The notes beneath the pieces are model-generated. The model saw nothing but the letters and a program-made list of their open reading frames with translations. It was not told the DNA's origin and searched no databases. From positions 26,411,775-26,475,774 of the forward strand of contig NC_054881.1 of the NCBI RefSeq assembly GCF_018320785.1: a stretch of 64,000 bases of DNA. Direction: 5' to 3'. The position numbers and the translations under genes were made by a program. Origin of the DNA: Cheilinus undulatus (Eukaryota; Chordata; Actinopteri; Labriformes; Labridae). Position 1 is the first letter of the stretch. Every line of letters starts with the position of its first letter. Shown in pieces: positions 12,820-62,367 of this stretch.

Positions 12820-12877
12820 ATGGACCTTTGTCCGTTGATTTTTTTCTTTTTGCTAGCAAGTCTGGCTTCTTCCCGAG
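12820..12877 (+). other. lrp13: lrp13 exon 1: signal peptide
   Basis: Encodes [20 protein letters not shown], a short start followed by a strongly hydrophobic core and small residues, typical of a cleaved signal peptide. The donor G|GTAAAA leaves phase 1, which matches exon 2 exactly. No other hydrophobic ATG-led exon with this phase was seen upstream of exon 2. Confidence 0.75.
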
Positions 12878-27800: not shown

Positions 27801-30416
27801 TCACTGTGCAGACGGAAAACGTTGCATCCCAAAGAAGCTCTTGTGCGATGGAGAGAGAGACTGTTTGGATGGTACAGATGAGCTTGGCTGCAGTAAGTCT
27901 TAAACCTGCAAGTTCAATGTCAATTAGGTTGTTTTTACTTTAAAAGTTCAAAAGCTGTGACATTTAAGCAGTGCAGCGAGTATCTTTAAGTGTAGTAATA
28001 GTGGTGGCAGCCAAATGACAAAAGTCAGGTGGATTCATTCAAAATATTCCTTTCCAGATCCTCTCACTGCTTCAGCTACAGATTCTCCTGCTGTCACATT
28101 TGCATCAACATGCATCGCTCCATCAGTTATCTGTCCAGGTTCATCTCTGTGCATTTCTCAAAATCAGCTGTGTGATGGAAAAAACAACTGCCCTGATGGA
28201 TTTGATGAAAATAATTGTATCCGCCGATGTAAAAACCGTGGTAAGTATGAGAGCAGCTATTACAACGAAGAAAAAGTGCTGTAATTTGTTTGTGGTAAAT
28301 TACATCAGACACATTTTGGATGACTTGGAGACTTAATGCAAATGATTTATCACATTTTTAAGATGATTACATAAGTATATTTTCTTCCTCCCTTTGATTG
28401 CTGCATTTACTTATTTTTTTCATTTTAGGTGACTTCTTGTGCAGTGACAGGAGGGCCTGTGTCCCAAGGAAAGAAGTGTGTGATGGTCGATCCCACTGTC
28501 CTGATGGCTCAGATGAGAGAAACTGTAGATCAGCTGATCCAATAGCTCCCTGTAAGCCAACAAGAAATGTAAAGTAAAACAGTGATGTGTAATAGCAGTA
28601 GCTAATCTTATCAGAACATTTTATTATCATATAAAAATAAACTGGCCATCTTGAAACCCTGCAACAGTGCATACACCCCAGAAAACACTGAACACGGTCA
28701 CATCAACCCTTTTTTACCCTGAAACCTGCCCAGTGACCCATTTAGACACAGCTTGTCAAACGCTTTATCCCATTGAATCTAGCATTCAGACTAGTCTGGC
28801 TTATCATGTGGTCGTAAATCTATGGAAACAATCCCAGACTTGACTGTTGCACTAAGTATTTAGGCTGGATGTCTCTAGATTCCACTGAAGCATAACTCTC
28901 TCTGCCAAGACTCCAGTGTGCTCAGTGCTGGATCAGTGCCACTGAAGTGCCGCAAAGGATCCAAGCCTTGTAAAGATGGCCTGGAGTGTGTTCTTTACAG
29001 TCATGTGTGTGATGGAGAGAGAGACTGCAAAGATGGATCAGATGAAGAGGGATGTGCAGCCCAGTGCAAAGCAGGTTTGTTTTGTCCTGTACACAGGTAA
29101 GAAGCTTATATAATGCAACAGTTATATCTTACAGTTGATATGTTACAGCAATGCATGGGTTGAACATGCAGTTGTTTAGCTTCCAAATAATTATCAGAAT
29201 ATTTGGTTCGATGCACATGGCTGTTCCTGCTGTCAAATAAGTGAATATATGGTTAATAAAAAATTAAGGCTAAAGAGTCTTTTTGTCTTCACCAGATGAG
29301 TTCAAGTGTGCTCATGGGAGTAGATGCATTTCAAGTGACAAGGTGTGTGATGGACAGAATGACTGTCAGGACCGATCAGATGAATTAGACTGTTCAACTC
29401 TGATGGAAGGCTGCCATCACCGCTGTGATAACAACACCCGCTGTATACCAGAGACCTTCTTGTGTGATGGAGAAAGGGACTGTGCTGATGGGTCAGATGA
29501 GGAAAAATGTGGTAAGGGATTTCGATAATTGATATTACAGAAGATGCATATAAAACATGACAAGATGCTGCACGTCTGTCCTTTTCTTTCATCTAGCTTT
29601 GGTGGCCTGTTCAATTAACCAGTTTCGCTGTGCTAGTGGTCAGTGTGTGTTAGAGGCTATGAGATGTGATGGTTATCCTGACTGCCGTGATCGTTCTGAT
29701 GAGGTTGATTGCACCAGACCCCCACGCTGTCCAGTGCAGCTCCGATGTCCAAACAGCCATGAGTGCCTGCAGAAAGAGTGGCTCTGTGATGGTGAGAATG
29801 ACTGCAAAGATGGATCAGATGAGAAGGTAAAAAAAAAAAAAAAAAACACAACTGGTCATGAGTTTTGTTATTGACAAGTGTGACTTACTCAGAGCATTTT
29901 GAATAAACCAAAGTGAATGCATTTGAATTTTTTAAGATAAAGTTTGAAACTTGGTCTCAATTGTATCCAGAACTGCGTGCCAGCACCGGCCAAGTGCAGA
30001 GAGTACCAGTGGCAGTGTGGAGACAGCAGTCAGTGCATCCCTCTGTCCTGGAGGTGTGACGGGAAGGTGGACTGTCATAATGGCATGGATGAGGACAAAT
30101 GTGAGTAAATGGTCAAGTTTATTCTATTCTATACTTTAGGGCCTTTTTTGAACAGTTAGTTTATAGGGTAAATCCAAGGTTATCAAAAAAATATTATTTC
30201 CCAACATCCAGTCTCACCTGTTTGAGTTGCTGTGACCAATTTTAAGGATATGTGGTTCTCAAATGGTGTGGCAAGTCTAGGTATGCCTCGGGAATTTGTA
30301 CAACCATGTGTGATTACTATGACTATTCAAAGACGCTGTCCAATTTTTTGATATTTGTAAACGAAAATTTCTGAAGGATATCTGGTATTTTCTTACAGTG
30401 TTTTTGTTACACACAA

Positions 30417-30460
<44 letters not shown>

Positions 30461-30462
30461 GG

Positions 30463-30500
<38 letters not shown>

Positions 30501-33500
30501 TGATATAGCTAAAAAAGTATGCTCCAAAAATATTAATTTTAACATTAATTCAGTTGTTCTCAAATGGTGTAGCATTGTGAATTTGTGCAACCATGTGTTA
30601 TTACTACAGCTATATATCAACTGAAGATACAGTAAGGAAATTTAAAGTGGCAGTTTTCATGGATTTGAAGATGATCTGCCTTGAGACTATGGCTTGATGT
30701 TCAGTGTGCCTTGTGCAAAAAGTGTTTTAAAATTACTGATTTAGCCTATATAAATTTGTGTATACTATGGAAAAAGGAGTGAATCATAATAAGATATTGG
30801 TACCTGCATAAATGGGTTTTGCTGGTAATACACCCATGCTGTTATCCATGGTACACTGAGCTTAAGAAGACAGGTTTCATACACTCAGCTCATTTTCTTA
30901 TTTGAGTAGATGGTCATTCTTAGGGATGCATGCTATTAACATCATGCATTCTTAGGGATGCACGATGTTGGCAGCATGACATTGGTATTGGTAGATATCA
31001 GTTTTTTTAAGTCAGTTATTATCGGCAGATATGAAAATTTCTGCTGATATTTTCGACTGATATATCCTCTGAAAACGTTTATATCAGACATAAATATTGC
31101 CTTTTGTAGGTCCAAAAAACATAAAGTGGAAACTATTGGTATCAGCTCAAATGATTTTGTAAATATCAGCATTTAAGACATCTGCAAGCATCTGGCGTTG
31201 TGTATCCTTAGTCCTTCTCCAATGAATGAGAAAATTAATCCTGATATAAGCGATGGTTCTAGTTTCAGAATTGAATTGTCCATGGAGTCGTGCTTGCTCA
31301 AGGGGTTATTTTGCCCAAATTGATGCAAATTTGTTTCTCTACTTCCACAGGCAGTCAGAAAAAATGCCCCTCTCACCTTTACCAGTGTGGCAGCGGTGAG
31401 TGTTTGGACCCCCGTCTGGTATGCAACAGCTACACCAACTGTGCTGACGGGTCAGATGAAGGCCCAGGATGTGCTAAACGCAACTGTTCCAGCTCATCTG
31501 CTCCTCAGTGTGACCACTCCTGTGTCAGCACCCCAAATGGACCGGTAAGAGGAGAACAGATGTATTCAAGGTGTCTGATCTGCCTAAAGCTGTTAGGATG
31601 GCTTGGTCTGAGAGAAGTTTATCTATAAACATGTACACAGCATTTTGATTGGAAGTTGAAGTGTATGCCTATTTCTTCCCTGCTCAAATTGACAAGTCTT
31701 TTCTTTATTTCTCAGCGATGTTACTGTGCTGCAGGTTTCGTACCACACTCTAGTGCTGTGTCCTGTGTGGACGTTGATGAATGTAATCTAATGCCCTATG
31801 TGTGCAAACACACCTGCCTAAATACCCGTGGGTCCTACATCTGTCACTGCCATCCCGGCTTCTACTTAGAGCCTGACAGCAAAAGTTGCAAGACCAAAGG
31901 TACAAAAAGTGTTCATTTATTTCACAAAATGTTCTCTGCCCTCTACCTTTATACAGGTGTATGTGTCATGGCATTTTCCTGTATAGCTCACTACTGGGCC
32001 AGAAAGACAGAAAACCTTATTGACTTGCTGTGTGTTTCCTTCACCAGATGAGCCTTTACTTCTGGCCTCAGTGCAGTCAGAGCTTTTACTTCAAGGAGTC
32101 CACAGTAGTACTTTGCGTCTACTCTCCTCTGCCAGTCGGCCAGTCTTCTCACTGGATTATCACTGGGCTCAACAGAGAGTTTACTGGCTTAGTCCAGACT
32201 ACCAGAGCATTCGCTGGGCTGACATGACAAACCCCACCAACAACAAAGGGACACTAATAAAGGGTAAAATTAAAACCATACAACTCTTTTGTTGTGTAAT
32301 ATGATTTTTCATCTGTATGGTTCTATTAATTTTAGGAGTTACCAAAACAATCAGCTAATACATGTGCGAGATTATTCACGCAACAAAAGAGATTTTAGGC
32401 TCTACTCAGACTTTGAAGTATTCAGAAGGCATGTCTTTTTTCAGGAGTGAAGTCTGATTTTATTGCGGTGGACTGGGTTGGCAAGAATCTTTACTGGGTT
32501 GATGGACTTGTGGGCCAGATTCTGGCAGTGAAGCTCAGTGACGTCACAGTAAGGTCTCAGGATTACACAGTTGTCCTGGGTGAAGATCTGGAGCAGCCAA
32601 GCTCATTGGTCCTGTTACCACAAAAAGGGTAAGGTGGTGAATTACAAGTGTGGGGAAAGTGCTTCAGAAACACATTATTGTTACTTCAAGTTTTAACCTG
32701 TATTTAATAAACTTTTACAGGTTGATGCTTTGGTCTGAGATTGGTAGCACCCCTCAGATTGAGCGTTCCGGGATGGACGGTTCCAGGAGGAAGGTGGTGG
32801 TGAGTCGAGGCTTGAGTTGGCCTGTCAGTCTGGCCTTTGACCTCCTCGACAGCAGGGTGTACTGGGCCGATGAGAAGCTACGCTGCATTGGCTCAGCTTC
32901 TCTTGATGGAGACAATGTTAAGGTAAAAAGCACATAAATTAAAACAAAACTTGTATGACCAAGTTTCAACACCGGTTGAGGAGACAGTTATGAATATTGC
33001 TGATCCATTTGACTTCTCTCATCAGATCCTCCAGTTAGCTGAAACGCCAAGCCCTTTCTCTGTGGCAGTCTTCAATGACAAAGTTTTCTGGTCCGACACA
33101 AAAAGAAGGACCATCCGATCAGCTGACAAGAATACAGGCAAAGATCAGAAGGTTCTCCTGAAAAGACCAGGGCAGCCATTTGGACTGAAAGTGAGTTTTA
33201 AATGTTTACCTATGAACATGTTATTGTTGGATATCATGATGACTATATAAAAGCTGACAGTTTCTGAACTGTCTTTTAACATCAGCATTTGACAAAACAA
33301 CTACAAGCTAAGAAATATTTGTGAAGAAAGCCTACAGCTATGATCCCTTTTCCTCTTATCCCAGGTTATGCATACCCTGTCCCAGCAAGCCATAGCTAGC
33401 CCATGTGACCAACTTCAATGCTCCCACCTCTGCCTACTGGCTCCACCGATGAGAGGCAGGTCTGGAGCAACAGTTGCAGAAGGGACGGGACCCACAGCAG

Positions 33501-36500
33501 TTTGTCGATGCCCAAAAGGCATGTTGCTTTCCAAGGACAAGATAACCTGTTCTTTGCCTATAGATTCAACTTTCATCCTGCTTTTATCTCATACCACTAC
33601 CTACCAGGTGAATATCTGAGTGTAGTTTAAAAAGCAATGAAATCTTAATGCCTTTTTCTGAAAACAGCCTCTGATGCATAGCTCTTCCTCCCAGATTTTC
33701 TTTCTCAGATTAATACATTTCTTGTAAAGCTTACCTGTGATAATATCTCTTTTGTCTCACCCTGATACTTGTTAAAGATTCATCTGCGCTCCATGCGTCG
33801 TGATGGTGTTGCTTTGAAAAAGATGCCTAATGGCAGAGATTTAGCAATGCCAGGGATACGGGAGGCCACCGGACTGGATGTGTCCATCCAGGAGCTTTCT
33901 CTTTTTGTGGCTGATGCAGCACAAGGATCTGTGGATGTGCTGAAACTGAGCAGCTCCAGACTGACATCCTCCGGACAAATCCTTAAATTGAAGGTAGATG
34001 TAAATCACCTTATGACAATAAATATCAATTTTAACAGCTGGCAAAGGTGACGTTTATTATCCAGAAGTTTTTTTTTTTACAGTATAAAGTATAAAGAGTC
34101 TGTTATTGTTTTTCTTTATTTGATTCTGGAAAGGAGAGGCTATTATGATGAAGTTTTTACCAAGAGTGAAAAGAAAAGTCCTAACGGTCCTCTACTCTCC
34201 AGTGAAAAGGTTATGCCTTGGACAGCAAACACATTCAAGTAGTCTATATTGACTTTGCAACTCCTTAAATTCAGCTGCACTGAAAGTTGTCAGTCTTGGG
34301 TGGAATTCTAACTTTGTGAACTCAACTTTATCTGCCTTTCAGGATGATTCAGTTACAGCATTGGCAGTTGACTGGGTAACCTCAAACCTCTACTGGAGCA
34401 GCACTGAGAGGCCCAACCTCCATGTGACCTCCCGCAATGAAGGCTACACTACCTCACTGCTGCAGGGATCACTTAAAGTACAGATCTGCCTCACAGATTA
34501 AACTTGTTCTTTTCACCTTCACTATCACCAGCTTTATCTCTCAAAACATTTCTTTATAACTCTGGCTATAGACTCTAATATTTCTTAATCATACAACTCT
34601 TCTTGTAAATCTAACTCCAGGTCTCTTTTGAACTCTTAGGGTACGACATCCATTGCTCTACATCCCCCCACAGGAAGACTTTGTTACACAGCAATAGTTG
34701 TGGCAGTTGGAAAGAGCCAGACGGAGGTGAACTGCATCTGGATGGATGGCCGGAACAAAGCATTGCTATGGAAGAAGTCAAGCATCCCCACCTCTTTGGT
34801 TTTTTCAAATCAAGGAACTATGATCTACTGGGCTGACACAGGTAATGTTACTATGTTCTTGTACTTGATGTCAATTATAACAAATGTTGGCTGCTCTGCC
34901 TTAGGTTATCTATTGATTAATTTTTTTTTGTTTCTTTTCTGTCTAGGTGAAGGTGTGATCAGCTCCATTGGAGTGGACGGATCAGGATATAAACAGTATA
35001 AAACAGGGCCGGGTCTGATCATTTCCTTCACATACATAGAAAACATCCTTCTCTGGGTCACTCTTGACAAAGGTAAACAAGGTTTTCAGCTCAAAAAAGT
35101 CAATCAACCCAAGATGTCTTGTTGGGAAATCTGAGATTCAGCTATTTTCTATGTCTCTCCAACAAAGTGTGCAGTCCTGCATTTTCACATTGATCTTAGC
35201 CTTCACATTTCTTTCATTTGTCTTTTTCCCCTTCAGGCAGCAGATGGCGTTAGGGACTAAAGTAACCATAAATTATTCAGTCAGCCACTTTTCTACAAGC
35301 TGCCCCATTAGACATGTTTTAACATCTTCTCCATCACACCTGCCCTGTTTCGTCCAATTTCTGCATGTTAGAAAATACCTAATAGTTTTTGTGAGTTAAT
35401 TTTCAGGTTGGTTGAATGTAAACTTCTTTTTTGTGTTTTCACTGTTTAGATATAACCAAACTGTGGTTTAGCGATGGTCTCCAGCCTAACCAGCTGTGGT
35501 TTGAGACAAAGATCAGTCTGGTGGAGGTCAAAGCCTACAGCAATGACACCCAGTCAGGTATCTATTGACAGACAAAAATGGCTCCTGTGACCCTTTTACA
35601 AGCCTATGGCTCTTTAAAAAAGATAACCATGAAGATATGATAAGACAACAATTCCTGGTTATTAGAGTGAGCATTAGAAGAGACACAAATTCAGATGCTT
35701 TGATAGCAGGTTTGGAGTAACGCTACAATTTGCAGTAAAGAGGCATACAGAGTCAGGTAAATGACTATACTTGACATAAGACATGACCGTTACAGCTCTC
35801 AAAAAGGTAACAAGTGAAAAGAATAGTGAAGTAAATAAACAGCAAACTGTGACAGTGAAAACATGATATATAAAGAGCAGACAAGTTATCCCAACAGAGG
35901 TGACACCAATAGGCATGACTTCCTGATGGCCACTAGATGGCAGGGGAGGCAGACTGAAAGGCAAAGGGTTCTTAGGAGCTATTTCAGACACAACTGTAAC
36001 ACAAATAATCCTCTGACATGGAGCAAAACTTAAACAAATATCATTCAAAGAACAGTAACTCATAATGAAGTTAAAAATAAAATCAGTTTAACCATTACAT
36101 GCAAGATGCATCCAGCCAAGTTAAAGCCTGTCAGTCATAATACTGATTTAAATTAGCCAGGCAGCGTGCTTTTCCAGTCAACTGCAAATGTAGAATGCAT
36201 CCCAGGGAGATTCTAATGAAATTGTGCAAGCAGCTTGTCAACACTGTAATCCTCCTCACATAATGCTGCATAATGTGATAATTCCTGCCCATGTTTGCAA
36301 TGCTAACCAGCAAGCTTGTAGCTTAAATTGTAAAACATGCCAAACCAGTGTTCTAGTCCTGCTTCAGGACTCTAGCAGCACAGGTATTTTTAAACTTTTT
36401 TCTCATTCTGAATGCAGGACACAGAAAATGTGCGTTATCGAACACTCCAGGCAGAATGAAAAGACTCACTTAGACTCAGTTTGAGGTGAATAGATGGCAG

Positions 36501-39500
36501 GGTGATGTGATACCTGCAGAGATGCAAGTCTTGGCAAGCTGTTGTGGAGGCTCAATGTGTTGCAGTGATTACTGTAGTGGGAAAGAGGGAGGATGAATGG
36601 AGCAAACAATCTTGGGCATTAACCCTGTTGCAGCCTTAGCATACGCAAAAGTGACGGAATAAGCAAAGTTTGTTGTCTGAATGATATGCACACCACAAGA
36701 ATACACTGAAATCCGTCACACATGACGTCTTTAAACCATTTTTTCCTGGCATGGCTCCACAAATCAAATACCAGTTCAATTACAATGACAAAGAATAATC
36801 ATTCACAATATGTGGCTTCTGTCAAAACGGCACTAAAAGGTGCTTTATGTATGGTAAACCAGCATCTAAAGAAATGTCAACTTGGGGAAAAACTGAAATT
36901 GTAGTTCATATTCTTAAATTGCATGAACAGCTTCGCTAATTCAATTTTGCAAAATTTCTTAAAGCAAAGTCGCTGTGCTGTGATCTACAATTAAGATGAG
37001 ATGTGTTTGAGTTCTTTGATCAAGACTTTTGGTACTTGAAAACTGGAGATTAAGTAGTATTACAAATTTTATGAGATAAGAGTGAGCACAAGTTATCACC
37101 AACCAAAAAAAAGTGTCACAAATACTGCAGACAGAACCAAAGAAAAAATATAAACATTAAGTCTTTCCAAAGTCTTCCATAACAATGTCTGTATTTGTTT
37201 GCTGTCATCCAGAAGCCAAGTGCTCTTTTATTTTTTAACAAAGATGGACGCACTTGGACGTACTTCACATTCCCTGGATGAAAACCAGGTTCATTTTTTC
37301 AGTCTGGCATTCGGATTGCCAAAGCAGTGCCAGATCAGATGAAGTCATATTATGCTGCCAGGAGTTCCTGATATCTGAATAAACCAGCCACAATCTGTAA
37401 ATTAATAGACTAATGAACTTTTAAGCATTATTGGAATACCCACAGTACTTTATACACAATTAAATACCAATAACAAAGGGGAACCTCAAAACTTAGGTTC
37501 TATGCATTCCTGTGTTAAAATCCTTTGGAGGCCTACAGCCATAGTGAAAGTCAATAAAGGTTCCTATAAAAATGAATATTGAATATCTGCTCATTGACTC
37601 AAAATTAAACGCTTAAAGTGTTTACATAATGTATTTGCTCAATCTCTGTGACAGTGAGGCTGTTCTTTCCTTGATTTGCATATCCTGGTTGACCTACAGG
37701 CTCCAACAATTGCTCTGACAACAACGGTGGATGTGATCACCTGTGCCTGGCCTATCCTGGAGGTCGGACATGTAAATGTGGGCGTGGCTTCTCTGCTGTC
37801 AATGCCACTTCCTGTACCCTGCTCCCAGACTGCCCCTCTGGACAAGAGTCCTGTTTTGATGGCAGCAAGTGTATCAGCAAGAGCAAGTTCTGCGACGGAC
37901 ATTTGGACTGTTCTGACGAGTCTGATGAGCAGGACTGTGAGTTCGATAAACTACACACTGAAACTAAAATACTCTAATCACTCAGCAGTCTAAAAGCAAC
38001 AGCAGACATGGCAAATGAAGGAATACAATTATACTTTTTGAAGTAGAAATGAGTATTTACATATGTCTCTGCAGTCAAAATGACTATAGTCAAAATAATT
38101 TGAGCTCATGATTGAATTTAAGCCAACAAAATCCCTTTCTGTTATTTCAAGCCCAATATTGTTTATTTGTAGAAACAGCACTTCGAGTTGTGTCAAAAAC
38201 AGTACATGAGTCACAACTTATTTTCTGTAATTATAGCATGTGGATTAGTATTTTGAATCAAGGCTCTAGAATTACCAGACATTATGAGGACTTTTATTTT
38301 CTAAACATATGGTTTACTAGATGAAGAGGTTGGAGAAAACATTTGTAAGCATAGGAAGGATCATCAAATACACCCTGGTCTACTGAACTGTACACACAAA
38401 TTAGGAAACAGCGGTTTAGGAAAGATGTGCATTATTAAGCAGTAGTTAAATTCACAAAGAAAAGAGCTCTTTAAGTAAAATTAAAGAAGTTCTATTAGGT
38501 TACACAGTTTAGGTGCACCTCAAAAATTGAAATGTCACGTTCAAGTTAATTTTATGGTCATTTAATTCAAAAGATGAGTGAGACTATCAACCTACCAATA
38601 TAATTGAGCTTCAAGCCAAAGTAAAGCAACCTGGGCTTCAGGATCAAGTATGGCTAGAAACAGTGCTACATCACTTCCTGCTCTCAAAGCCAGCTCTGTG
38701 TTTGAATGGCAGAAGATTGGGAAACATGGGTAGCGAAGCAATTGGCATATAAAAATTACAAAACGCAACGCTAATCATTACTCTGAAATGTCATTATTTT
38801 TGCATAACTCGCAAATGACAAATCTTTCTTGTTTACCTCTTTCATTTTGAAGAAAAGTTTCCACCCAGAAAGCAGTGCACAGAACCCAGATGGGTTAATC
38901 AATTGAGTGCATAAATGAACATACTAATCTGAAGCTCAGCATTTCTGCTTTGTAAATCCTTTTTTATAGGTCTTATGTAATATTTTACTATTCTGAGACA
39001 CTGGATAATTCAATCATGTGAAATGAATCTAGAATATAAACTTTTTTTCATCCAAGTATGGTTGACAAGATGAGCTTCTCCTCAATATTTATTTTTTTTT
39101 AATGCCCCTGTATTCTTTTATTTAACCTTTTTGCTTTTATATAAAATTAAACAAATTGTTCACCTTTTGGGAAATTGCTTTTCTTTCTTTCTTAGGGCTA
39201 GATTGAAAAGTTTAGGACACAGCTAGGCTTTCTTTGCAAAAACTAGCATAATATGTCTACCAGCATCTCTAAATGTCATCAATAATACATTAAATTCTTT
39301 TATTGGTATGACAACATGGTAATGTGTGGTTTAATAAATGTTATCTGCTAGATTATTCTTGTGTGCATGGTAACTTTCATTATTGATTGCCAAATTATTT
39401 ATCCCAGCTTGAATATTTTTGGCAAACAAAAGCAGTTAATTTGTAATATTGCATAATCTCTAAAATTAATGTTCTCTTTAGGTCCGAACACAAACTCAGC

Positions 39501-40543
39501 CTCTTTTGGCACTAATGGCCACCCTCTGAAGTCTTCCTCCTCACCTCACCAAAATGCTGGAAAGAACTCTGTGCTTTCAGTGAAAGGCTCTGTGTCCTGT
39601 GATGTGCAGCGCTGCAATGGTCATGGCAGCTGTGTTATCAAAGACAAAATCACTCAGTGCCAGTGTGAGGCCGGCTACAAGGGAGAGTTCTGTGAAGAGG
39701 CAGAGACCAGAAGGAGCAAAGCAGGTGTTGTTCTCGGTGTCCTCTGCCTCATTGCTGCACTGCTGGCTGCAGCCTTTATTTATGCTAAAAGGTAAAAATC
39801 TCAAGAAGGAATTTTTACTCCTGCATTCTGTTTAGGCAGACCTGGTTCGTCTCACCATAGAGTTTGAATAAGCTGCTGTTGTGTTTGGTCAGCAAAAACT
39901 TGATAGAGTCTTTGAACTTCTGTCTAATTTAAAACTATTCAGTTAATTTTAAGTTATCTACAGAAATACAATAAATTAATTGCCTTTTTAAATGTGGTTT
40001 CTACAGGAAAGGTTTCAAGTTCTTCAAAAGCAGATCTATTGAGAAGGAAACTCTGATGGCAAACATGGGCCTGCCTTGTGAACACTACGATTCAGACTCT
40101 GAGGTCAAATCATGAAAGATATTTAAAAGTATTGAATATTCCCAGTGTGTTTACAAATTGGCAAAAGGGCAGCTAAATGCAAGTTTCTAAAATAATTCAG
40201 CTATGCTGAAAATATTTGCAAATACTGTTTGGTGCTCTGCACAAAGGTTCTAAGGATCATCACACAATATTTAAACATTTGTTACCAAAAATTATACTTT
40301 GTGTTAATGCAGTGTAGCAACTATAAACCTTTGACAGCATGTTGGTGATTAAGTGAGCCAAACCTTTGTGTCTAATTATTCTTTAAACTGGGAAAATAAT
40401 TTCTACAGTTTTTATCAGCTAAAACAATTTTATATGCATTGTCATGCTTTAAGATTATCTTTTTTTTTTCTCCCCAGGAGCTGGAATCCCCAGTTGATGT
40501 GAAGAACCCCCCACTGGCCTTAAAATCACTGCATTTAAAGTAG
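12820..40543 (+). CDS. lrp13: LDL receptor-related protein 13-like giant lipoprotein receptor (49 coding exons)
   Basis: Forty-nine exons with matching phases total 9,261 coding bases, predicting about 3,086 residues. Order with approximate residues: signal peptide (1-19), four LDLa (20-181), EGF and calcium-binding EGF (182-263), YWTD propeller 1 (264-518), EGF (519-558), propeller 2 (559-808), 29 LDLa (809-2165), EGF pair (to 2251), propeller 3 (2252-2507), EGF (2508-2588), propeller 4 (2589-2850), EGF plus LDLa (2851-2929), Ser-rich linker with EGF, one transmembrane helix (about 3009-3030) and a 55-residue tail. LDLa modules bind basic patches on ligands and propellers drive acid release. 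Lrp13 is known from teleost ovary as a vitellogenin-binding receptor. The 4/29/1 LDLa arrangement excludes LDLR, VLDLR, LRP8 and LRP5/6 and does not fit LRP1 or LRP2, which are larger. The symbol is inferred from architecture and not from alignment. AATAAA at 40593-40598 is the likely poly(A) signal. Confidence 0.72.
13965..16151 (+). other. lrp13: lrp13 exons 2-6: four LDLa repeats then two EGF domains
   Basis: Exons 13965-14087 (LDLa1), 14467-14715 (LDLa2-3), 15267-15380 (LDLa4), 15706-15825 (EGF) and 16026-16151 (DLDECAQQ, calcium-binding EGF), all phase 1. Each LDLa shows six cysteines and a calcium cage of the CDGxxDCxDGSDE type; LDLa4 has the variant SDGNDEP. Exon 3 has an alternative acceptor at 14476 in the same phase, which would drop three residues (AQA). 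Confidence 0.82.
15452..15598 (-). mobile_element. tRNA-derived SINE copy in lrp13 intron 4
   Basis: On the minus strand a degenerate A box (TTTAGCTCAATGGGTAGG) is followed by a degenerate B-box-like GGATCAATTC and a GTGCATGTCTTCCCCA tail-side segment. This combination recurs in teleost tRNA-derived SINEs. It is too diverged to be a functional tRNA gene. Confidence 0.5.
16694..19091 (+). other. lrp13: lrp13 exons 7-10: YWTD beta-propeller 1
   Basis: Exons 16694-16897, 18113-18281, 18515-18683 and 18869-19091. The blades show [45 protein letters not shown] and [12 protein letters not shown], i.e. variants of the YWTD motif. Phases run 1, 2, 0, 1 and stay in frame. The propeller is bounded by a calcium-binding EGF before and an EGF after, the standard LDLR-family arrangement. 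Confidence 0.8.
17306..18010. repeat. Dispersed teleost repeat within lrp13 intron 7
   Basis: The stretch from CATTTGGCAGGCACTCTGTC through AGTTGCAGTAGTC to CAGTCAGGTAAG matches, from memory, a dispersed repeat seen in many fish genomes, usually with ATCCAAAGCGAC near its start. The 98-codon open stretch at 17624-17920 is part of this repeat and not an exon. Confidence 0.6.
19519..19638 (+). other. lrp13: lrp13 exon 11: EGF domain between propellers 1 and 2
   Basis: A 120-base phase-1 exon with six cysteines, including [17 protein letters not shown] and a final DGACE. The donor is T|GTAGGT, and the split codon completes as Tyr with exon 12. Confidence 0.78.
19925..21885 (+). other. lrp13: lrp13 exons 12-14: degenerate beta-propeller 2
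   Basis: Exons 19925-20143, 20338-20649 and 21667-21885. The blades include [46 protein letters not shown] and [11 protein letters not shown]. Several lack the canonical YWTD core, so this propeller is more diverged than 1 and 3. No EGF follows it; the next exon begins directly with LDLa repeats. Confidence 0.75.
23640..23945. repeat. Dispersed teleost repeat inserted in lrp13 intron 19
   Basis: The block has GACGCTTTACAAAGAGGGCAG, AGTGGCAAGAAAAAACCTAAC, AGCAGAACCAG and ACAGCCATCTGCC, in the order seen in a common fish interspersed repeat. The homologous introns 21 and 25 lack it, so it postdates or escaped the unit duplication. Confidence 0.6.
25730..26500. repeat. Older dispersed repeat interrupted by a hAT element in lrp13 intron 24
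   Basis: GAGATATTCCTTTATTAGTC and CCACAAGGGGAGATTCCC at about 25730-25760 resemble the terminal part of a widespread fish retroelement. The sequence on either side of the hAT insertion (before 25847 and after 26391) appears to be one interrupted repeat. The class is not certain. Confidence 0.45.
25855..26383. mobile_element. Non-autonomous hAT-type transposon with 8-bp target duplication
   Basis: The ends are TAGGGGTGG at 25855 and CCACCCCTA ending at 26383. They are flanked by GTGTACGC (25847-25854) and GTGTACAC (26384-26391), an 8-base target duplication with one mismatch. The interior has repeated ATATCG/TATCGCAATA motifs in opposite orientations near both ends. There is no transposase ORF. 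TAGGG-type termini and 8-base duplications are hallmarks of hAT elements. Confidence 0.82.
30254..30745. mobile_element. hAT-like repeat copy, related to the one at 57729, in lrp13 intron 33
   Basis: TGGTTCTCAAATGGTGTGGC at 30272 and TTGTTCTCAAATGGTGTAGC near 30553 start two similar stretches, each with a TTTGT(A/G)CAACCATGTGT segment. The right part has GGCTTGATGTTCAGTGTGCC. These blocks correspond in order to those of the 57729-58299 element. It is broken by a dinucleotide repeat. Confidence 0.55.
30421..30500. repeat. (AC)n and (AT)n microsatellite
   Basis: An AC run at 30421-30447 is followed by AT/TA runs to about 30497, interrupted by GGCTGA. It lies within lrp13 intron 33. Confidence 0.95.
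30953..31210. mobile_element. Short non-autonomous hAT-like element (TAGGGATGCACGATG terminus)
   Basis: The left end TAGGGATGCACGATG and the right end, whose reverse complement is TAAGGATACACAACG, are imperfect inverted repeats. The interior is rich in TATCGG/GATAT motifs typical of a common fish element. A second partial copy of the left terminus lies at about 30920-30930. The flanking 8-mers match only partly, so the target duplication is uncertain. Confidence 0.55.
31716..31899 (+). other. lrp13: lrp13 exon 35: rest of EGF and calcium-binding EGF
   Basis: Starts RCYCAAGF, completing the EGF begun in exon 34, then [13 protein letters not shown] opens a calcium-binding EGF with the [12 protein letters not shown] hydroxylation-type segment. 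It ends in phase 1 before propeller 3. Confidence 0.82.
32048..33190 (+). other. lrp13: lrp13 exons 36-39: YWTD beta-propeller 3
   Basis: Exons 32048-32263, 32445-32628, 32721-32922 and 33026-33190. Blades: [71 protein letters not shown] and [17 protein letters not shown]. This is the best-conserved propeller of the protein. Confidence 0.85.
33365..33607 (+). other. lrp13: lrp13 exon 40: EGF-like domain
   Basis: A phase-0 exon of 243 bases with [16 protein letters not shown] and [18 protein letters not shown]. An insertion rich in Gly and Ala ([13 protein letters not shown]) separates the two halves, and about 20 hydrophobic residues follow the last cysteine before the splice to propeller 4. 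Confidence 0.75.
33778..35557 (+). other. lrp13: lrp13 exons 41-45: degenerate beta-propeller 4
   Basis: Exons 33778-33993, 34343-34477, 34640-34841, 34947-35072 and 35450-35557. Blade motifs are [42 protein letters not shown] and TKLWFSDG. One exon has an inserted cysteine pair (LCYTA, VNCIW). The acceptor of exon 41 (CTTGTTAAAG) is weak but gives the right phase. Confidence 0.78.
37700..37936 (+). other. lrp13: lrp13 exon 46: EGF plus the last LDLa repeat
   Basis: [16 protein letters not shown] and [10 protein letters not shown] form an [20 protein letters not shown] and SDESDEQDC form an LDLa. The donor T|GTGAGT splits the final cysteine codon (T|GT). Two different downstream exons restore it. 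Confidence 0.85.
38514..38700. mobile_element. Small Tc1-like transposon remnant in lrp13 intron 46
   Basis: AGGTGCACCTCAAAAATTGA at 38514 followed by TTTAATTCAAAAGATGAGTG resembles the terminal repeat of the Tc1-like element at 51493-54528. GCAACCTGGGCTTC at about 38627-38640 resembles a segment close to its transposase C-terminus. It is heavily internally deleted. Confidence 0.45.
39482..40543 (+). other. lrp13: lrp13 exons 47-49: membrane anchor set A (linker, EGF, TM, 55-residue tail)
   Basis: Exons 39482-39791, 40007-40103 and 40478-40543. After a Ser-rich linker come [13 protein letters not shown] and [14 protein letters not shown] (EGF), a hydrophobic helix ([19 protein letters not shown]) and the tail. 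The tail starts [19 protein letters not shown], contains [13 protein letters not shown] and ends SLHLK and TAG. No FxNPxY motif is present. EKETLM resembles an acidic dileucine signal, and the Ser/Glu cluster has CK2-type sites. If the last intron is retained the tail ends EVKS at 40113-40115. Confidence 0.8.
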
Positions 40544-40592
40544 AAGCTTTGTATTATGGTGCTAAATCAAACATCTTAAGAATATTAATTGT

Positions 40593-40598
40593 AATAAA
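40593..40598 (+). terminator. Poly(A) signal after lrp13 anchor set A
   Basis: AATAAA lies 50 bases after the TAG stop of exon 49. Confidence 0.6.
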
Positions 40599-40599
40599 A

Positions 40600-43500
40600 A
40601 AGAAAAAACAATAATGTGTTTGGATTAATCTCTTCTCTTTAGATTATGATGTATTGCAAGTGAAGTTTGAGTTTGTTTAAAAGCCTACCCATTTACATCT
40701 ATTTATGACTAAATTAACATTGTCTTGTTGTGTAGCTACACATTTTGATTTGACTAGATAACTGCACATGATCTATTCACATGGTTTAAATATAATAAAT
40801 CTCATAATGGCAGAAAAATCTGTGCACATCACTGCAGACAATTAATCTTTATATTTGTCCATCTTTGCGGGTGAGAGCTATCAAGGTTTTATAGATAAAC
40901 ATTGAAAATAATTTTCAATTACATACTAATGGGCAGTAACTTATCAGTATTTTAAGTTGTAAAATTCTAATGAATTTCTTTAAAAGAGAATGTCTATATT
41001 GTTGGAGATTCTTTAATCTTGTTAAAATAAGTGCACAGCTAATGGCATATAAAAAAACTTTTTGCCTGCTTTGTTGTATTCCTGCTACACTTCAAAAACA
41101 TATTTGTCACCATCTATAATCTCTTTGTTTCTGCTGTGTCTTCACAAGAGGTAGTCTGTAGGATTTGTTTTTTTGTTGTTCAGCACCTCTTTTTGCCTCT
41201 ACAGTATCCTGTACTGTTTTTTACTGATGTCATTATGGTGGCACTGTTTCACTGTATTCATAACTGCACTGTCTGTGCTGTCTCTGCACCTAGACTGATT
41301 TTTTTTTTTGTCTTTTACTAGGGTTTGGCTCAGTATGATAAGATAGAAGTTTCTCTGCATTATTTTTACTCTCATTTTCATCAAGATTACGTATTGCTCA
41401 TCAGCATACACACCAGAATCAAACCTTAGTTTACATTTACTAACAACAGTCATTACTGCTTTCATGTTAATCTCAGTTCTCTTGTAAATTAAAACCGGTT
41501 CCTACTAAAGGCTTGCAAAATCTGTCCCTCTTGTCAATAAGTCTTAAACCAGAGACATTTTTAGGACAGCATTCATCTCATCACTTTTCTTGTTGGATCA
41601 GCATGTCAACAAAGCCCCTTTGTCTTAATCTAATTCATGTTAGAATCTCTAATATCTGTGGAAGGTATGACGCACCAAGCTCTTACCTAAGTGAGATGTG
41701 TACCTGCCAACGTGAGTGCTTCTTCAGTGAACCGAGGTCATGCATGCTTCTTTGAGTCTTCTTTGTACCGTCTTTGGCTTGAGACACTAAACATGGCATC
41801 TAAAATGCTGTTTCATTTATCTTACACAATCACTGCTAGAAGTGGCATGTCTGACTCAAATGGTATGGTATTGCTGAACACATTATAAAACTGGGTGTGG
41901 TTTTTGGTGCAGATGTGTGAAACCTTTGTTTTCCAGAACCATATCCTTATTGGGGCTTTAAATGCCTTACACTTCCTGACATCACAATTTAAAAAAAACA
42001 TTCACTGTATAGGTGGTATGCAAAACTACTATTTAACTAATAATTCCCATATTTATACACCTTAGGTTATGTCTTTAGGGTTAATTTGGGTTCAGTATCC
42101 TGCTTAAAGGTAGTTTGGCAAGATGGTAGTCGCAGCTGGGCATTTGAACTGTCAACTGGAGGATAATCTAATCTGACTGATCCACAGCTGCTCTGATAAT
42201 TTACTTTTTATCCTAAAAAATGGGTTGTTCATAATCACAGATGAGTTACATAAAGCATCTGGTCCTCCTATTATTTTTGTTCTGATTAAAGTATTTAAAA
42301 ACTTGACACTTCCATTGTCATAAAGCATTGTTGAACAGATTTATGTATGATTTACCTGCCTTAGTGGTCACACTTTATCATTGATTGCATTTTAGTTTAC
42401 TGATTATGGACCCATCATAATGCACTTAATATTTGCATAACTAAATAGTGATCATTCACTGCTCACTCTCTTGAAGGATCCAAGGTGTTCCCAGGCTGGA
42501 TTAGATAGATAATCCTACATTCATTCTCTTCTCTGCCTTCTGGTCTCCTCCCTGCTTTGTAGAAAAATCTCTTCTCCTTGGTATTGCTGCTCATTACCCT
42601 GCCAAAAAGCCTAGTAACCAGTAAGAAATGGTGAAAATCAGAATTAAAACAGACTAGGAAAAAACCAAAAACAATATTTAATGTTTTAAGTTGAAGGTGT
42701 TGAAGGGCGTTGTCTACATAATACCTCTTCTATAAACTTTCTTCTTAATGTGCTTGAAGGCTGAGTACTTTTTACTTAAAATACACACTAGGGGACAAGT
42801 AGAACAGTGGACTAGTTTACATGTTTTACATGATGACATCTAATGTCTTCCACAAACTCTGTAGACCTAGTTAACCACAAGTTAGCAACCTTTCTTGTAA
42901 TACTTGGAAAGCTTCAAAATTCACATGCGAGTAACTTTCAGGTGTATTCTACATCCCACAAAAAATGGTTAAGCTTCTGTTTACTGTTGAACTCATATAG
43001 GGCAACTAACTGGAAACTCATTATAAAAATCCCATAGACAGGAAACAGAAGTGCTATAATGCTAACACATTTCTGAGGCTCATTGCTTTACCACTCTACT
43101 GGACAAATTATAATGGGAATAACCCTGGAAGCACAGATTAATGACACAAAATCTTATTACCTTAAGAAATGTAGCTACTGTATACCCTACCTGGCTATCT
43201 ACCTACCTGACCCTTAGTGCACACTTTACCTGTGCTCCCATCTGAATAAGTAGAGACTTTTACAAGCTGAAGCTAGCTGACTGGTAGCCCAAATATGGAA
43301 GAGAAATGTGTGGGATAAAATAAGTGAAAACAGTGCTGTCCCTCTCTCCTTTACCCCACAGTCACGTTTGAACCTCCATATAAGCAAGGCAGTGAAATCT
43401 TGTTTTGGAAAGGCTACTGGCAACGTAAAGCTAACTTTTTTTTATAGCGTCCTTGGCTTTGAATCTTAAAGGGTTGAACTATGCTACAGATTGACATTGG

Positions 43501-46500
43501 AGCTTGAACTACAGCCATTACGCTACTTGCTAAATGTTGACTTCCTCATCATAATACTGTCCACCTTTTTCCCCATTTGCACCCACTTTCTAGACTTTCC
43601 TGCCTTCATACCTCTTCATAGCAGTTCCTTGGCTGACCCCTTTTTCCTGTTCCTTGGGGCCTGTATTTCAGAGCTCAGTGTTGAATTTTTGTGGCAGATT
43701 TTCTGAAGATGTTTCAGCAGCTCAACATTTAAGCACACCACTAAATTCTCTAATCCTACCTAAGGTAATATTCCCCTCAAGACTCCTGAGAAACCCAGAA
43801 TGTTTCCTGCCTGATAAGCACAACAAATGTAAGTGATTCGTGTTACACAGACACGTCAGGCATGGCTGTCTTAGTCTTGTCGGTACTTGCCTTGTCCTTC
43901 CATCCCCTGCCTGTCTGGCAAACCCACTTACAGTATGGTGTTTAGTTTAATAGTCCTAAGGGTAAGGGTGTGTTTATAAATGTACTGTTTATAATGCTAA
44001 TCCTCTGGAAAAGGGAAGTATTTGATATGGTCACATCAGTGCCGAATCATTTTTCTATTATGACTTTCGCATGTTTGTATCTGTGTCCTCTATCCTCACC
44101 CTAAGTGTGAAGTTAGATTTATTAATTGGGCCACTGCGTTAAAGGTGACCTACAAATGAAGTCAATTTTCCCACAGAACCAGATCGTTGATTGCTGTGAG
44201 TCAGTCTTAGTCATTCCTTGAGGCATAAAATTAGTGCTCTTTTTTAAAGTAGGGTTGCTTCATCACTGTCTGAAATACATGTTGTGAGCAAGACTGTGTA
44301 TATTACTCAACCCTTGAAGATGGGGTGGAGGGAGGATAAAGGGTTTTATTTGTGTGTCCTTCTGTGGAAAAAAAAGCGGGCAGGTATTCACAGGTCTCAG
44401 CTTTCTTCCTCTTCCCTCCCTTCTTTTGTTGTAGATTCCCTCAGTGAAAGAGGAACTTCACATTCTTTCAGAGACTGAGTACCTGTAATACATCACACAG
44501 ACACCTGGACGCACCTACAACACGAATATACGCTCCACAGCCAGCTTTTAACACCTTAGCTCAGCGTTCTTTGCTTTGGTGAGTAGATTTTGCTCATTTT
44601 ATCATGTTAAGATGTCGTCCTCTGTTATTACACAGTTCCAGATGCCTGCCCTAAAGCCAGAGTTTAGCACAATCTCACTGTGTTTGTAGGAAACCTGAAT
44701 GACAAGATGCTTGAAGTAAGATAACCACTGGTGCATATTTAGAAGTGAAGCGGACACACTTTAGAGCTTCAGATCATGGTCAGGGTAGTCTCTGAAATTT
44801 GGTTGTACATTTTCCCACACGTAGTTGTTGTCTACAAGGCTTTGATGCAACAATGTCTAACAGTCAACTTACACTTTTGCACTAAAGAACAAATTTCTGA
44901 AATGTAAGAATGTTTATTACTACAAAAAAACATTCTGTTGTTGTGTTCAGTATCATAAAAGACAAAAGGCATCTTGATAGTGTTTCACTCTACTTTTTTT
45001 AATAGGTTACAACTATTATGTTACTGAACATGTACACTAATCCTCAGTAAGATGGCCACTTTGTCTAATTTTTTCTCATTCAAACTCTGACGTCAACCTA
45101 TTTTTTCAATCCGCTCTGAGTCAATGTCGGTAAAAGGCTGTTGATGATGAAACACTTTAGATGCTCCTACTTCCTTGTGTTGTTCACATGTAAAGCATTA
45201 AAAGTTGACCTCATTTTGTCTCATCAGGAGTTTTTCAAACCTATAAGTTGTCTTTAACTTCACTGAACAGGTGCTGTTTTTGTTTGTGGTCATTTGTATG
45301 TCATAATTTAAAAGTAAAATGTGTTCAGGAAGAGATGCCAGAACAACAAGCAGCTCTCTGTGTGCGCACATTTTTAATAAACTATAGCTGGGGTGTTAAC
45401 ATGCAATATTTGCTTAGTGTTCTTTTTTTGTCAGTAATGTCGCTCCTGTAGAGGTTATCAAGCATATTTTTGGTGTAAACAGTGTTTATTAGGGGCTGAT
45501 AGTAAGATTCATCTAATCTCATCAAGGTGATTTCAGAATATTAATAATGTTCATGTTACAGTACATATGTTTATTGCTTTCCTTTTTGCCGTACAAAAAG
45601 TGTAACTCCAGAATCAAGTCTGGAACCTGAATATAGTACAGGCTTCACCTTCTACATCCCAGCATCCTTGTATGAGCACACTACATTTGGGTTCCTGGCA
45701 CCATTGCTCTTAATTTTGCTGTGATTAGACCTGTTAGCCTCATTGGTGGACACTCTGTCTGACATCTTGTGATCACTATGAGTGGAACATGTTTATCTGT
45801 GCCTGCTAATGTTGTAGTTTGACATGGCATGCAAATTTGAAAAGTATTATCAACAGTAACAAGTGACTACGCCACTGCATGGAAAACATCTGTATGAGGA
45901 CATCTGGGACTTTTTACTGGAGTGAAAATGAGGAAGATTTATCAACTAATAGAAGAAAGAGACAAAATTTTTGCTCTAATTTGTTAGAATTACCTTTGTT
46001 GTGTTACACAATAGTGTCTTTACTGTTATATGGTAAAATAGACCCACTGTCCTCATATGAGGAAACCTTTTTTTAACTTCTTGTTGTTGAGGTACAATGT
46101 TAAGTTATTATACTTATCAGGTCCTACTAATCCCATACAAGCAGGAGAAATCAAAAATGCATAACAAATGAAAACATGGGTCTCAGGAGGTTAAAATTCA
46201 ATTTTAGGCACTACATAATCAAATAAATTACATGCACATGTAGTCTGCGATGCAAAGTTACATGGTTGGAAAAGTCAGATGGTACATTATCTTAACCCAT
46301 AACTAAAAGTACAAACAGTTTTCTATAAGTACAGTATTTACAGCAGTCACTACATTATGTGCTTATGTGTGTGAAATAAATTCATGAGGGAAAAAAGGTG
46401 ATAAACTAAGGTTTTGCAGTAAAAAAAAAAAAAACTCATATAAGTAAAGACAGTTCTAATTATTTGGCTTGTAAACTGATCAAACTTGAGAACAGCTAGC

Positions 46501-46611
46501 TATTAACATCCATTCCCACTCAGGATGGCTCTGTGTCTTCTCTTTATCATGTTGTGTTTTAAGCTGTGGCTTCTTCTCATTCATGTGTGCCCTCTCCTTT
46601 TCTCCTTCCAG
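40600..46611. other. Intergenic or intronic region between the two lrp13 anchor sets
   Basis: No LDLa, EGF or propeller exon was recognised, so the exons at 46612 do not appear to have their own upstream receptor body here. One candidate exon with a strong pyrimidine tract begins at 44435. The rest is AT-rich with an A tract near 46422-46434. Confidence 0.5.
44435..44488 (+). other. Candidate alternative last coding exon for the lrp13 tail
   Basis: A long pyrimidine tract ending TTGTTGTAG at 44434 precedes an 18-codon phase-0 reading frame, IPSVKEELHILSETEYL plus TAA. Exon 48 ends in phase 0 at YDSDSE, so the join would be in frame and acidic like the standard tail. A GTGAGT donor follows at about 44579. 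No second line of evidence exists. Confidence 0.25.
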
Positions 46612-48429
46612 GTATCACTCCTCCCTTTATAATCCAGAATTCCTTTTCCCCTCCCTCCTCCAACATGTCCACCTATTTCCCTCCTCCTCAACCGAGAGGC
46701 ATCGATCTCAGCCTCCCCACATGTGGAGAAATTCAGTGCAATGGGCACGGCACGTGTGTGAGTCCTCCTGGTGGTGGAACTGACTTGGTGTGTGAGTGTG
46801 AGCTGGGATACCGTGGTGAATCCTGTGACGACACAGTCAACGGGGCATTAAGTTTACCCCTGACCCTGAGTGTGCTGGCTGTCATCATCGGCCTGCTGAT
46901 CGTGGCTTTCATTGTTGCCAAGATAAGGCAGAAGCAAAAGAAGAACAACAGGTAATCATACAGACAGTGGTGTCTTTTGGGATGTAGTGTTCCATGTGTT
47001 GGTCTCTCAGGAATTATAGAATTAGGATCTAGCTAGATGAGGTTAACATAAATGCTGAGAGAGTCTTAAATAGCTGGAGACACTGCACACATGGATAATC
47101 ATGACACTACAAGTCATGTCTATGGTGTCCATGGTTAGAGTCCAGGGATTAAATAGACCCACCCAAATGTTATTTTATTGCCAAATTTTATTGCTTTTAC
47201 ACATTCATCTTTCAATCACACTCACACTCATACAGCAGAAGTTGCTCATCACGCACCAAAGGCTATTCCCCATAGACTAGTTAGGGTGCATTGTCTCACC
47301 CAGTGAGATTTAAACATTTACACTATTAGGGATTCAATTGCAAAACTTTCATGCAGAGATGGCCCGCTTTATCAAACCTGCCGACTCATGCGACATTCAA
47401 AAATGAAAATAACCTACAACTATTGCCCGGTGGTTATATGCCTCAGCAAGGCATACATTTGCTGGGGAGGCTTTTGATCTCAACTGTGTACTTCCAAAAT
47501 CTCATCAGGTCACCCCTGAGTTGGTGTTAGCATTTGTGCGAAGTTTGATGAAAATCCCTCAAAGCAAATATGTTCAAAGGCAATGGATGGGCATGAGGGC
47601 TAGTGACCTTGAACCTCTGACCTACATCTTTCAAAGTGTATCAATCCAATCTTGAATCAGAGTGTATATTTGTGCAAAGTTTAAAGAAAAAGCCCACAAA
47701 GCATTCTTAAGATGTCATGCTCACTAATGAACATAAAGTTTGAAGAAAATCAATCCAACCATTTGAGATTGCATTCGCATGCAAGGGATAAATATGAGGC
47801 TAAATTACCTTGACCTTTGACCTGTGATGCTTAAGATCTTTTTTTCATGAGTCAGAGTGGACATATGCAAAGTTTGAAGAAAATCTGTCTCAGGATTCTT
47901 AAGATATCATCTCCACAAGCAAGGGAGCATGAGCATGAAGCTCAATAACCTTGACCTTTGACTAACAAAGTCCACAGTCAGTCTTGAGATATCACATTCA
48001 CAAGAATGGCCCGTTCGGATGAACAGACAGACAAACAGACTGACAGATGAACAGCCTGATCATGCTCCAGGTCCCTGGCTATCACCGGTGCAAACGCATA
48101 AAGATTTGATGTTCAGTGAAGTTGACCTTTTCCTCTCAACACTCACTGACTAAGATCACTTTCCAGGAAGTGATAAACAAAGCTGGTTTGTTTGTGCTGA
48201 AGCAAAAAAAGAACTGAATAATAATGATCAGTGCCTGACACCTGTGTAAAGAAAAGAGCATCAAAAAGCATCCTAAACATGGATTGAAGAAGATAAAAAG
48301 CATATGAGATACACAGAAAAGGATTTATTCATAATATAACTTGAGAAAATATTGACAAATTAATTGTGTTTCTTTGTCATTAACAGGAAAGTTTTGGCAG
48401 CCAGACATGGCTACAACATTGCTGTGTGA
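46612..48429 (+). CDS. Second membrane-anchor exon pair (linker, EGF, TM, short tail), probable alternative lrp13 3' end
   Basis: Exon 46612-46951 begins in phase 1 and exon 48387-48429 ends in TGA. The predicted product is a Pro/Ser-rich linker (FSPPSSNMSTYFPPPQPRG), an EGF (CGEIQCNGHGTCV, CECELGYRGESC), a hydrophobic helix (LPLTLSVLAVIIGLLIVAF) and a 24-residue basic tail ending RHGYNIAV. Intron phases (1 then 2), order and the CNGHG(S/T)CV signature match lrp13 exons 47-48. Spliced to exon 46 it also restores the split cysteine, and the total, 9,171 bases, stays in frame (3,056 residues). It has no start codon or signal peptide of its own. The alternative is that it is a relic of a tandem duplicate gene. 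The helices and tails differ enough that the duplication is old, yet both frames are intact. Confidence 0.62.
47400..48100. repeat. Dispersed repeat with internal TTGACCTTTGAC motifs, between the two set-B exons
   Basis: It contains iterated segments such as GTGCAAAGTTT(A/G)AAGAAAA, TTCTTAAGAT(A/G)TCAT and CCTTGACCTTTGA and ends in ACAGACAGACAAACAGACTG. This pattern is shared with a common teleost interspersed repeat. A perfect nuclear-receptor DR1, TGACCTTTGACCT, lies at 47811-47823, with a near copy at 47952-47964. Confidence 0.6.
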
Positions 48430-61431: not shown

Positions 61432-62256
61432 TCAGAGGTCAGCATCATAGGGTCTACCGTTGTATGAGGAGTTAGCCGACCGGGCTGCGGGGCTCTTAGC
61501 CCGGGGGAAGGACACATCATCATCCAAAGAGTCCTTGCTGTAGGGTACGCTGCTGGCGTTGCTCCTGGCCCTGTTCAGGCTCGGCACATCGACACGTCTC
61601 GGCTGCGGTTTCGGGTTGTACCGGCTGGCTGTGACCTCGTCAACACGTACTTCTCCTCTGTTCCTGCCTCCGCAGCAACGGCAGATCCCGATGAACATGA
61701 CGAATCCACCCAGAACTTCAAATATCCCGCCGATGTAGCCCAAGACGATGCAGTAGCCCACGCGCACATCAACCGTCGATGTAACCGTAGTGACGTTTGG
61801 GAGGATGTGGGTGTACCAGGCGATGGGGATGATGGTCATGACGCCCGAGAGGAAGATCAACAGTCCACCTAGGCCAGCCACTGTCCAGTTGGGCCGGTCT
61901 CTCCAGCAGCGGACCCCTGGGATGGCCACTGCCAGCCCGATCAGAGTGACGATGAGGGAGGCGACCATCAGACCTTGCGCCACCTCAATGATTTGGTTGT
62001 TAAAATACGTGGTGTCCTGCAAGTTGCACTCTTCTCTCGTGTTGGTTGAAGTAGCCCTGCAGATGTCCCAGATGCCTTGCTGGATGAACACGTCAGAAGC
62101 GGTGTTGGGAAGGCTGTGGAGGGTCCTCCAGTTTGGGGCCACAGTGGCTGTCAGGTCCAGGATCCAGCCACAGGGAGCCATGACCAGCCCGAATATGAGG
62201 ATGCCCGGGGTGCGGAGGGATAACCGGATCCACTCCTGCGCTGATCGCCTCGGCAT
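61432..62256 (-). CDS. cldn23: Claudin-23 (single-exon tight-junction protein)
   Basis: An intact intronless frame of 274 residues from ATG at 62256 in an ACCATGC context (MPRRSAQEWIRL). The open frame continues 33 codons upstream to another ATG at 62355, but that region (KTRLIYYTDPGRSN) has no claudin character. Four transmembrane segments lie at about residues 18-38, 93-113, 125-147 and 166-192. The first extracellular loop has the claudin signature W43...G-I-W 61-63...C66...C77, with GLW changed to GIW. MAPCGWILDLTATVAPNW, the CRCC palmitoylation-type cluster after helix 4, and a long basic/Ser-rich tail ending DADL fit claudin-23, whose human member ends DSDL. Claudins form paracellular barriers or pores between epithelial cells. 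Teleosts may carry more than one cldn23 copy; which one this is cannot be told. Confidence 0.9.
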   Translation of the reverse strand: MPRRSAQEWIRLSLRTPGILIFGLVMAPCGWILDLTATVAPNWRTLHSLPNTASDVFIQQGIWDICRATSTNTREECNLQDTTYFNNQIIEVAQGLMVASLIVTLIGLAVAIPGVRCWRDRPNWTVAGLGGLLIFLSGVMTIIPIAWYTHILPNVTTVTSTVDVRVGYCIVLGYIGGIFEVLGGFVMFIGICRCCGGRNRGEVRVDEVTASRYNPKPQPRRVDVPSLNRARSNASSVPYSKDSLDDDVSFPRAKSPAARSANSSYNGRPYDADL

Positions 62257-62367
62257 GGTTGCTCTGCTGTTGTTGTTGACGTGTGTGTTACTTCTCCCGG
62301 GATCCGTGTAGTAAATAAGACGAGTTTTGATAGCAACAGCTGCTCTTAAAAACAAGTCTGACTGAAA

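Follow-up and report, generated by a model that had tools for sequence, protein, structure and literature searches.

Fish eggs take in yolk via receptors of the LDL receptor family. A gene of this family was found on the forward strand of the window analysed here, a 64,000-nucleotide stretch of the Cheilinus undulatus genome (contig NC_054881.1, positions 26,411,775 to 26,475,774), and its ectodomain exons are followed by two further exons, A1 and B1, each of which encodes a stalk, an EGF module, and a transmembrane helix. An earlier reading of the same stretch (hereafter, the original prediction) had proposed that one lipoprotein receptor is served by two interchangeable sets of membrane-anchor exons, set A and set B. 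The present analysis, which drew on all 46 contigs (1.17 Gb) of the source genome, with the window on contig C17, suggests that the gene is, on balance, probably a giant lrp13 paralog with two alternative terminal exon sets and one shared ectodomain.

The receptor body and its two anchor exons

The probable first coding exon (12820..12877, forward strand, as are all exons of the gene) encodes a signal peptide of 19 residues, exits in phase 1, and was the sole candidate in 10950-13960 at the scan thresholds. The receptor body, which consists of LDLa, EGF, and YWTD modules in a single open frame, follows with 44 of its 45 joined exons at 13965..35557. Most exons between about 14 kb and 37.9 kb were called with a purpose-built gene finder that gives one parse per sequence; tiny filler exons were removed, and the exons at 16694, 18869, and 34947, as well as the end of the exon at 23036, were placed manually from the sequence. 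The 45 body exons join into 2,759 residues with 0 stops, in a model that takes several exon 5′ starts of the LDLa array short; for that reason, the predicted product sizes of 3,086 and 3,056 residues were not reproduced from the signal-peptide exon and these 45 exons. Because the exons join stop-free and one upstream signal-peptide exon fits, the receptor gene body looks intact.

The core modules of the LDL receptor family are present, with LDLa and YWTD-type motifs (both counted by pattern in the body) in one open frame, together with EGF modules. There are 33 LDLa-like motifs in total, the last shared exon included, and 32 of them precede the C-terminal one. An array of LDLa exons at 22056-29511, with a repeating pattern of three repeats, makes the receptor far larger than published Lrp13. 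Unlike its sister exons, which use GT, the exon at 23036-23284 apparently has a GC donor (23285-23286; TGTG/GCGAGT).

The last shared ectodomain exon (37700..37936) is called E46 here, after its label in the original prediction. It encodes an EGF module and the C-terminal LDLa repeat, and in a Pfam scan that covered E46, A1, and B1, both FXa_inhibition and Ldl_recept_a exceeded the cut-off. As had been claimed, E46 closes on the first base of a cysteine codon (its last base is T at 37936, exit phase 1), and direct reading of the sequence revealed that A1 (39482..39791) and B1 (46612..46951) both begin with GT, which restores the cysteine and the frame. Both exons end with AG and are stop-free in the phase-1-to-2 frame; the other two frames contain 2 and 5 stops in A1, and 7 and 5 stops in B1. 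Since joining A1, or the A tail exon A2 (see below), to B1 would break the frame, sets A and B are mutually exclusive. A six-cysteine EGF module is encoded in both A1 and B1, with Pfam EGF_Teneurin over the cut-off in each, and the peak mean hydropathy of the helix is 2.85 in A1 and 3.07 in B1. B1, which extends beyond the helix into a basic juxtamembrane segment, has an intact frame of 114 residues, counting the split end codons.

The two anchor exons are homologous. The local alignment score of A1 with B1 gave a z of 21.4, and 0 of 1,000 shuffles were as good; the same number of shuffles matched the EGF modules (17/30 identities, z 12.3) and the helix regions (11/21 identities, z 7.4). Over 63 codons, the nonsynonymous divergence (dN) between A and B is 0.53 and the synonymous divergence (dS) is saturated (proportion of differing synonymous sites, pS, 0.746), with a dN/dS of 0.13. 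This combination of low dN and saturated dS suggests that the anchors are old and that both look constrained. Consistent with this, neutral simulations kept B1 stop-free with both splice sites in 0.5% of runs at 0.5 substitution per site, and in 0.03% of 20,000 runs at 1 substitution per site. The claim of two anchor exon sets in frame with one shared donor was thus confirmed from phase, GT starts, and homology.

The acceptors of the two exons differ greatly in strength. With a generic splice matrix, by which 4,057 AG dinucleotides of the window were ranked, the B1 acceptor was the best of all, whereas that of A1 scored under 39 of the 41 gene exons with which it was compared. With a second matrix, trained on the 45 other acceptors of the receptor gene and used to rank 4,011 AGs, the B1 acceptor scored over 45/45 gene acceptors and the A1 acceptor over 5/45; three of the 4,011 AGs reached the B1 score or more, B1 itself and A3 (a probable last exon of set A) among them. 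A regulated choice of terminal exon would be expected to show this pattern, in which a nearby acceptor that is weak but backed by a poly(A) signal is set against a strong, distant one.

Tail exons and poly(A) signals

The tail exon of set A, A2, either runs to a stop (40007..40115, stop at 40113-40115 after DSDSEVKS) or is spliced at 40104 (40007-40103), with exit in phase 0. A third A exon, A3 (40478..40543, 21 residues), was overlooked in the original prediction and is probable from its acceptor, which scores 11.04 and ranks first among 4,011 AGs with the gene-trained matrix, and from its frame, which is open in phase 0 alone, the phase in which A2 exits at 40104. The A2 donor is very weak, and beats 1/44 gene donors; both tail ends, one at the stop in A2 and one reached through A3, may exist. 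Set A likely uses the AATAAA at 40593..40598, closely 3′ of A3, as its poly(A) signal, and a second AATAAA lies at 40794, in agreement with the claim that set A has an AATAAA of its own.

For set B, a fair candidate tail exon, B2 (48387..48429), reads KVLAARHGYNIAV followed by a stop. It is weakly supported, being short and with alternative starts possible; its acceptor scores 5.38, and 37 of the 4,011 AGs, B2 included, score equal or higher under the gene-trained matrix. Like A2, B2 begins with GAAAG. With retention of the intron that follows B1, the frame would instead end directly after KKNNR. In that intron, at 47400-48050, there is recurring CCTTGACCTTTGAC-like wording, which looks like an old dispersed repeat. 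A second open frame over B2 (MATTLLC...) was considered as the start of a new gene and was set aside, as its exon was not called by the gene finder. Of the predicted set composition (linker, EGF, helix, and tail, with phases 1 then 2), the content and phases of A1 and B1 were therefore borne out, and the tails were revised, with a probable extra exon in A and a candidate in B.

The predicted A tail contains EKETLM and an acidic stretch, YDSDSE, which we take to be a dileucine-like stretch and an acidic cluster, respectively; the predicted B tail is short and basic, and ends with NIAV. The NPxY endocytosis motif is absent from predicted tails A2, A2+A3, and B2. The proposal that the two forms are separated into endocytic and non-endocytic receptors is without basis, because no predicted tail carries NPxY and the B tail exon is weak. 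Homology of the A tail to a tail candidate at a related locus on contig C5 was suggestive by eye and was rejected after 1,294 of 2,000 shuffles proved as good; no other tested tail pair was significantly alike.

Relation to lrp13

Searches of the genome with the EGF-helix part of B1 returned B1 itself, A1 (E 2e-8), and a locus on contig C5 (C5:46341261; E 3.2e-5), with the next match at E 0.34. The A query found B1 (E 5e-9) and the C5 locus (E 9.6e-4), and between them a broken match on contig C3 (E 4.9e-4) with 2 internal stops. The C5 locus shows the identical order of EGF, LDLa, stalk, EGF, and helix, with a single anchor, whose exon likewise starts with GT, ends with AG, and leads from phase 1 to 2; the gene has 11 LDLa-like motifs in total by the pattern used for the window gene. 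Two zf-CHY matches were found in the genome (C5:46324514 and C9:29646201), and none on C17. The C5 match, equated with rchy1 by its domain alone, lies ~17 kb from the anchor locus, 3′ of the C5 gene. A 314-residue open frame on the reverse strand (approximately C5:46334541-46335482), downstream of the single anchor exon at this locus, contains repeated PDIIVPI units.

In the portion of the literature cited here, published Lrp13 proteins have 7+1 to 13+1 LDLa repeats, an N-terminal set plus one (PMC9935665), and the eel paper, in the part drawn upon, names rchy1 as the gene upstream of lrp13 in every species compared. The single anchor, the 11 LDLa-like motifs, and the zf-CHY neighbour suggest that lrp13 proper is likely the gene on C5, and that the window gene, originally identified as lrp13, is probably a paralog. 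The window gene resembles Lrp13, the vitellogenin-binding ovarian receptor of teleosts, in its LDLa, EGF, and YWTD modules and in the unusual lone LDLa repeat that sits near the C-terminus, after the last EGF module and directly before the anchor. It differs in having 32 LDLa-like motifs before the C-terminal one, compared with 7 to 13 in the published proteins (PMC9935665, as excerpted), in the lack of a zf-CHY match on its own contig, and in its two anchor sets. According to a newt paper (PMC11772764), Takifugu rubripes has two lrp13 copies located on different chromosomes, a state attributed to the genome duplication of teleosts; C. undulatus likewise carries a pair of such genes, one on C5 and one on C17. 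In swordfish ovary RNA, no lrp13 sequence was found by the authors, according to the section of that study used here (PMC6517582).

The dN between A and B (0.53) is lower than that between A and C5 (0.77) or B and C5 (0.80), which would place the anchor duplication on the C17 side. Whole-exon alignment scores, by comparison, are near equal (A-B 128, B-C5 125, A-C5 118), and the stalks of A and B resemble that of C5 (z 4.4 and 3.1, respectively) though not one another. Three short saturated sequences cannot fix the placement of the duplication, which may predate the C5/C17 split.

Interpretation, alternatives and surrounding sequence

The interpretation that we favour, a receptor whose transcripts end in either of two terminal exon sets, would work as follows. 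After E46, the spliceosome would join either A1, which is proximal and has a weak acceptor and its own poly(A) signal, or B1, which lies 8.7 kb downstream and has a very strong acceptor. If A1 were recognised in time, the transcript would end at the A poly(A) signal; if A1 were missed, it would be passed over and B1 would be joined, and intron phase would keep the sets separate, as A1-to-B1 joining shifts the frame. The last LDLa cysteine would be completed in either product, and the whole ligand-binding ectodomain would be common to both, with differences in stalk, last EGF module, helix, and cytoplasmic tail. A further step, for which the case is tentative and falls somewhat short of even, is that this is an old, selected dual-anchor receptor that gives one ectodomain either of two membrane fates, such as uptake of yolk by oocytes as opposed to another cell type or surface. 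If the arrangement is real, a swap of tail and helix with a constant ectodomain would separate sorting from ligand binding, it would provide a natural test of the role of the tail in lrp13-type receptors without NPxY (in the models given here), and gene models with one C-terminus would miss an isoform.

The exon 17 alternative of Drosophila Dscam lies within the transcript, whereas the window gene would swap a whole terminal set. In both, two anchors lie behind a common ectodomain, although Dscam is an unrelated protein. The alternative transmembrane exons 17.1 and 17.2 of Dscam send isoforms to dendrites or axons, as described in the part of PMC2566808 cited here, an analogy which shows that a receptor can be redirected by exchange of its transmembrane exon. 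Within the LDL receptor superfamily, the egg-yolk receptor Lr8/VLDLr has splice forms lr8+ and lr8- (PMC9935665, in the portion cited). No dual-anchor report for lrp13 or the LDL receptor family was found among the open-licence papers listed by the searches, as judged from titles and abstract openings.

Several points weigh against the two-set interpretation. The use of both junctions, the kinetic choice between them, and differential sorting by the tails are inferred from the DNA. Both splice matrices were home-made, and the constraint on the anchors was deduced solely from the comparison of A with B inside one genome. The stalks of A and B cannot be aligned (z -0.1; 527 of 1,000 shuffles did equally well), and codon bias fails to mark the coding strand of B1, which scores 14.2, below two antisense frames at 15.9 (7 stops) and 14.6 (2 stops). 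The gene finder took B1 whole but truncated A1 at 39724, and left both A2 and B2 uncalled. After B2 there is an ATTAAA at 48972, and the first AATAAA, at 50661, is 2.2 kb off. Finally, the C5 gene, with its one anchor, shows that the dual arrangement is not shared even by both members of this receptor pair. The notion of interchangeable anchors stands on phase, the split cysteine codon, homology, constraint, the B1 acceptor, and the lack of relics of a second receptor body; its lrp13 identity and its endocytic corollary are not supported.

Three other explanations were weighed. B could be the main anchor, with A a minor or special-tissue form, as the far stronger acceptor of B1 would suggest, and in the helix and juxtamembrane region, the C5 anchor resembles B more than A (z 5.6 vs 1.1). 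In the stalk, however, by the scores given above, the distance of A from C5 is no greater than that of B, and A1 is proximal and intact, with AATAAA close by and, in A3, the best acceptor of the window under the gene-trained matrix; this explanation is considered unlikely. That B is an unused relic, whether it once anchored a tandem copy or once served as an alternative exon, is rather improbable. The weakness of B2 and of the B poly(A) site would fit a relic, but B1 has kept its frame, its six EGF cysteines, its helix, and the best acceptor although its synonymous sites relative to A are saturated, and the low neutral survival of its frame and splice sites argues in the same direction. The original prediction had named a separate receptor body feeding B1 as a refutation; no relic receptor exons were found nearby over chance, the best tblastn match in the gaps (E 0.003 among 49 queries, namely the 45 exons, A1, B1, the A tail, and the C5 anchor) being equalled by 7 of 30 shuffled sets.

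It is very doubtful that B1 is part of a short transcript of its own, started somewhere between set A and B1 (via 44435-44578, for instance) and encoding a small EGF-transmembrane protein: B1 has an internal ATG, and 44435-44578 has a fair acceptor (6.72) and a donor (4.41) and matches the genome at itself alone, but that stretch has a stop in each frame, the CpG observed/expected ratio is at most 0.38 in 500-base steps over 40.5-46.5 kb, with no CpG island, and B1 keeps the GT that finishes the LDLa cysteine, for which an independent protein would have no use. A scan of 40545-46560 for signal-peptide exons with a phase-1 donor yielded 0 (0.46 expected), which is weak evidence against such a transcript because 32 of 50 simulated sequences also had none. 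The orphan exon-like stretch at 44435-44578 reads IPSVKEELHILSETEYL followed by a stop in one frame, and may represent a further A tail, a 5′ exon of B, or a chance occurrence.

No relative of B1 was found in the viral contig collection. A bacterial contig match (L028), the single match in the prokaryote collection, was rejected, as it is a proline-rich stretch matching the stalk. E46 gave a weak viral match (L029; 37% over 51 residues).

The receptor gene is flanked by genes that, from their translations, are presumably a nodal-like TGF-beta gene at 9-10.8 kb and a claudin gene at 61432-62300, both on the reverse strand, and, past the window end, a tankyrase-like gene from 68316 onward on the forward strand. 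At the left edge, the end of an open frame that enters from the flank, and that we take to be reverse-transcriptase-like, occupies positions 1-411 of the reverse strand.

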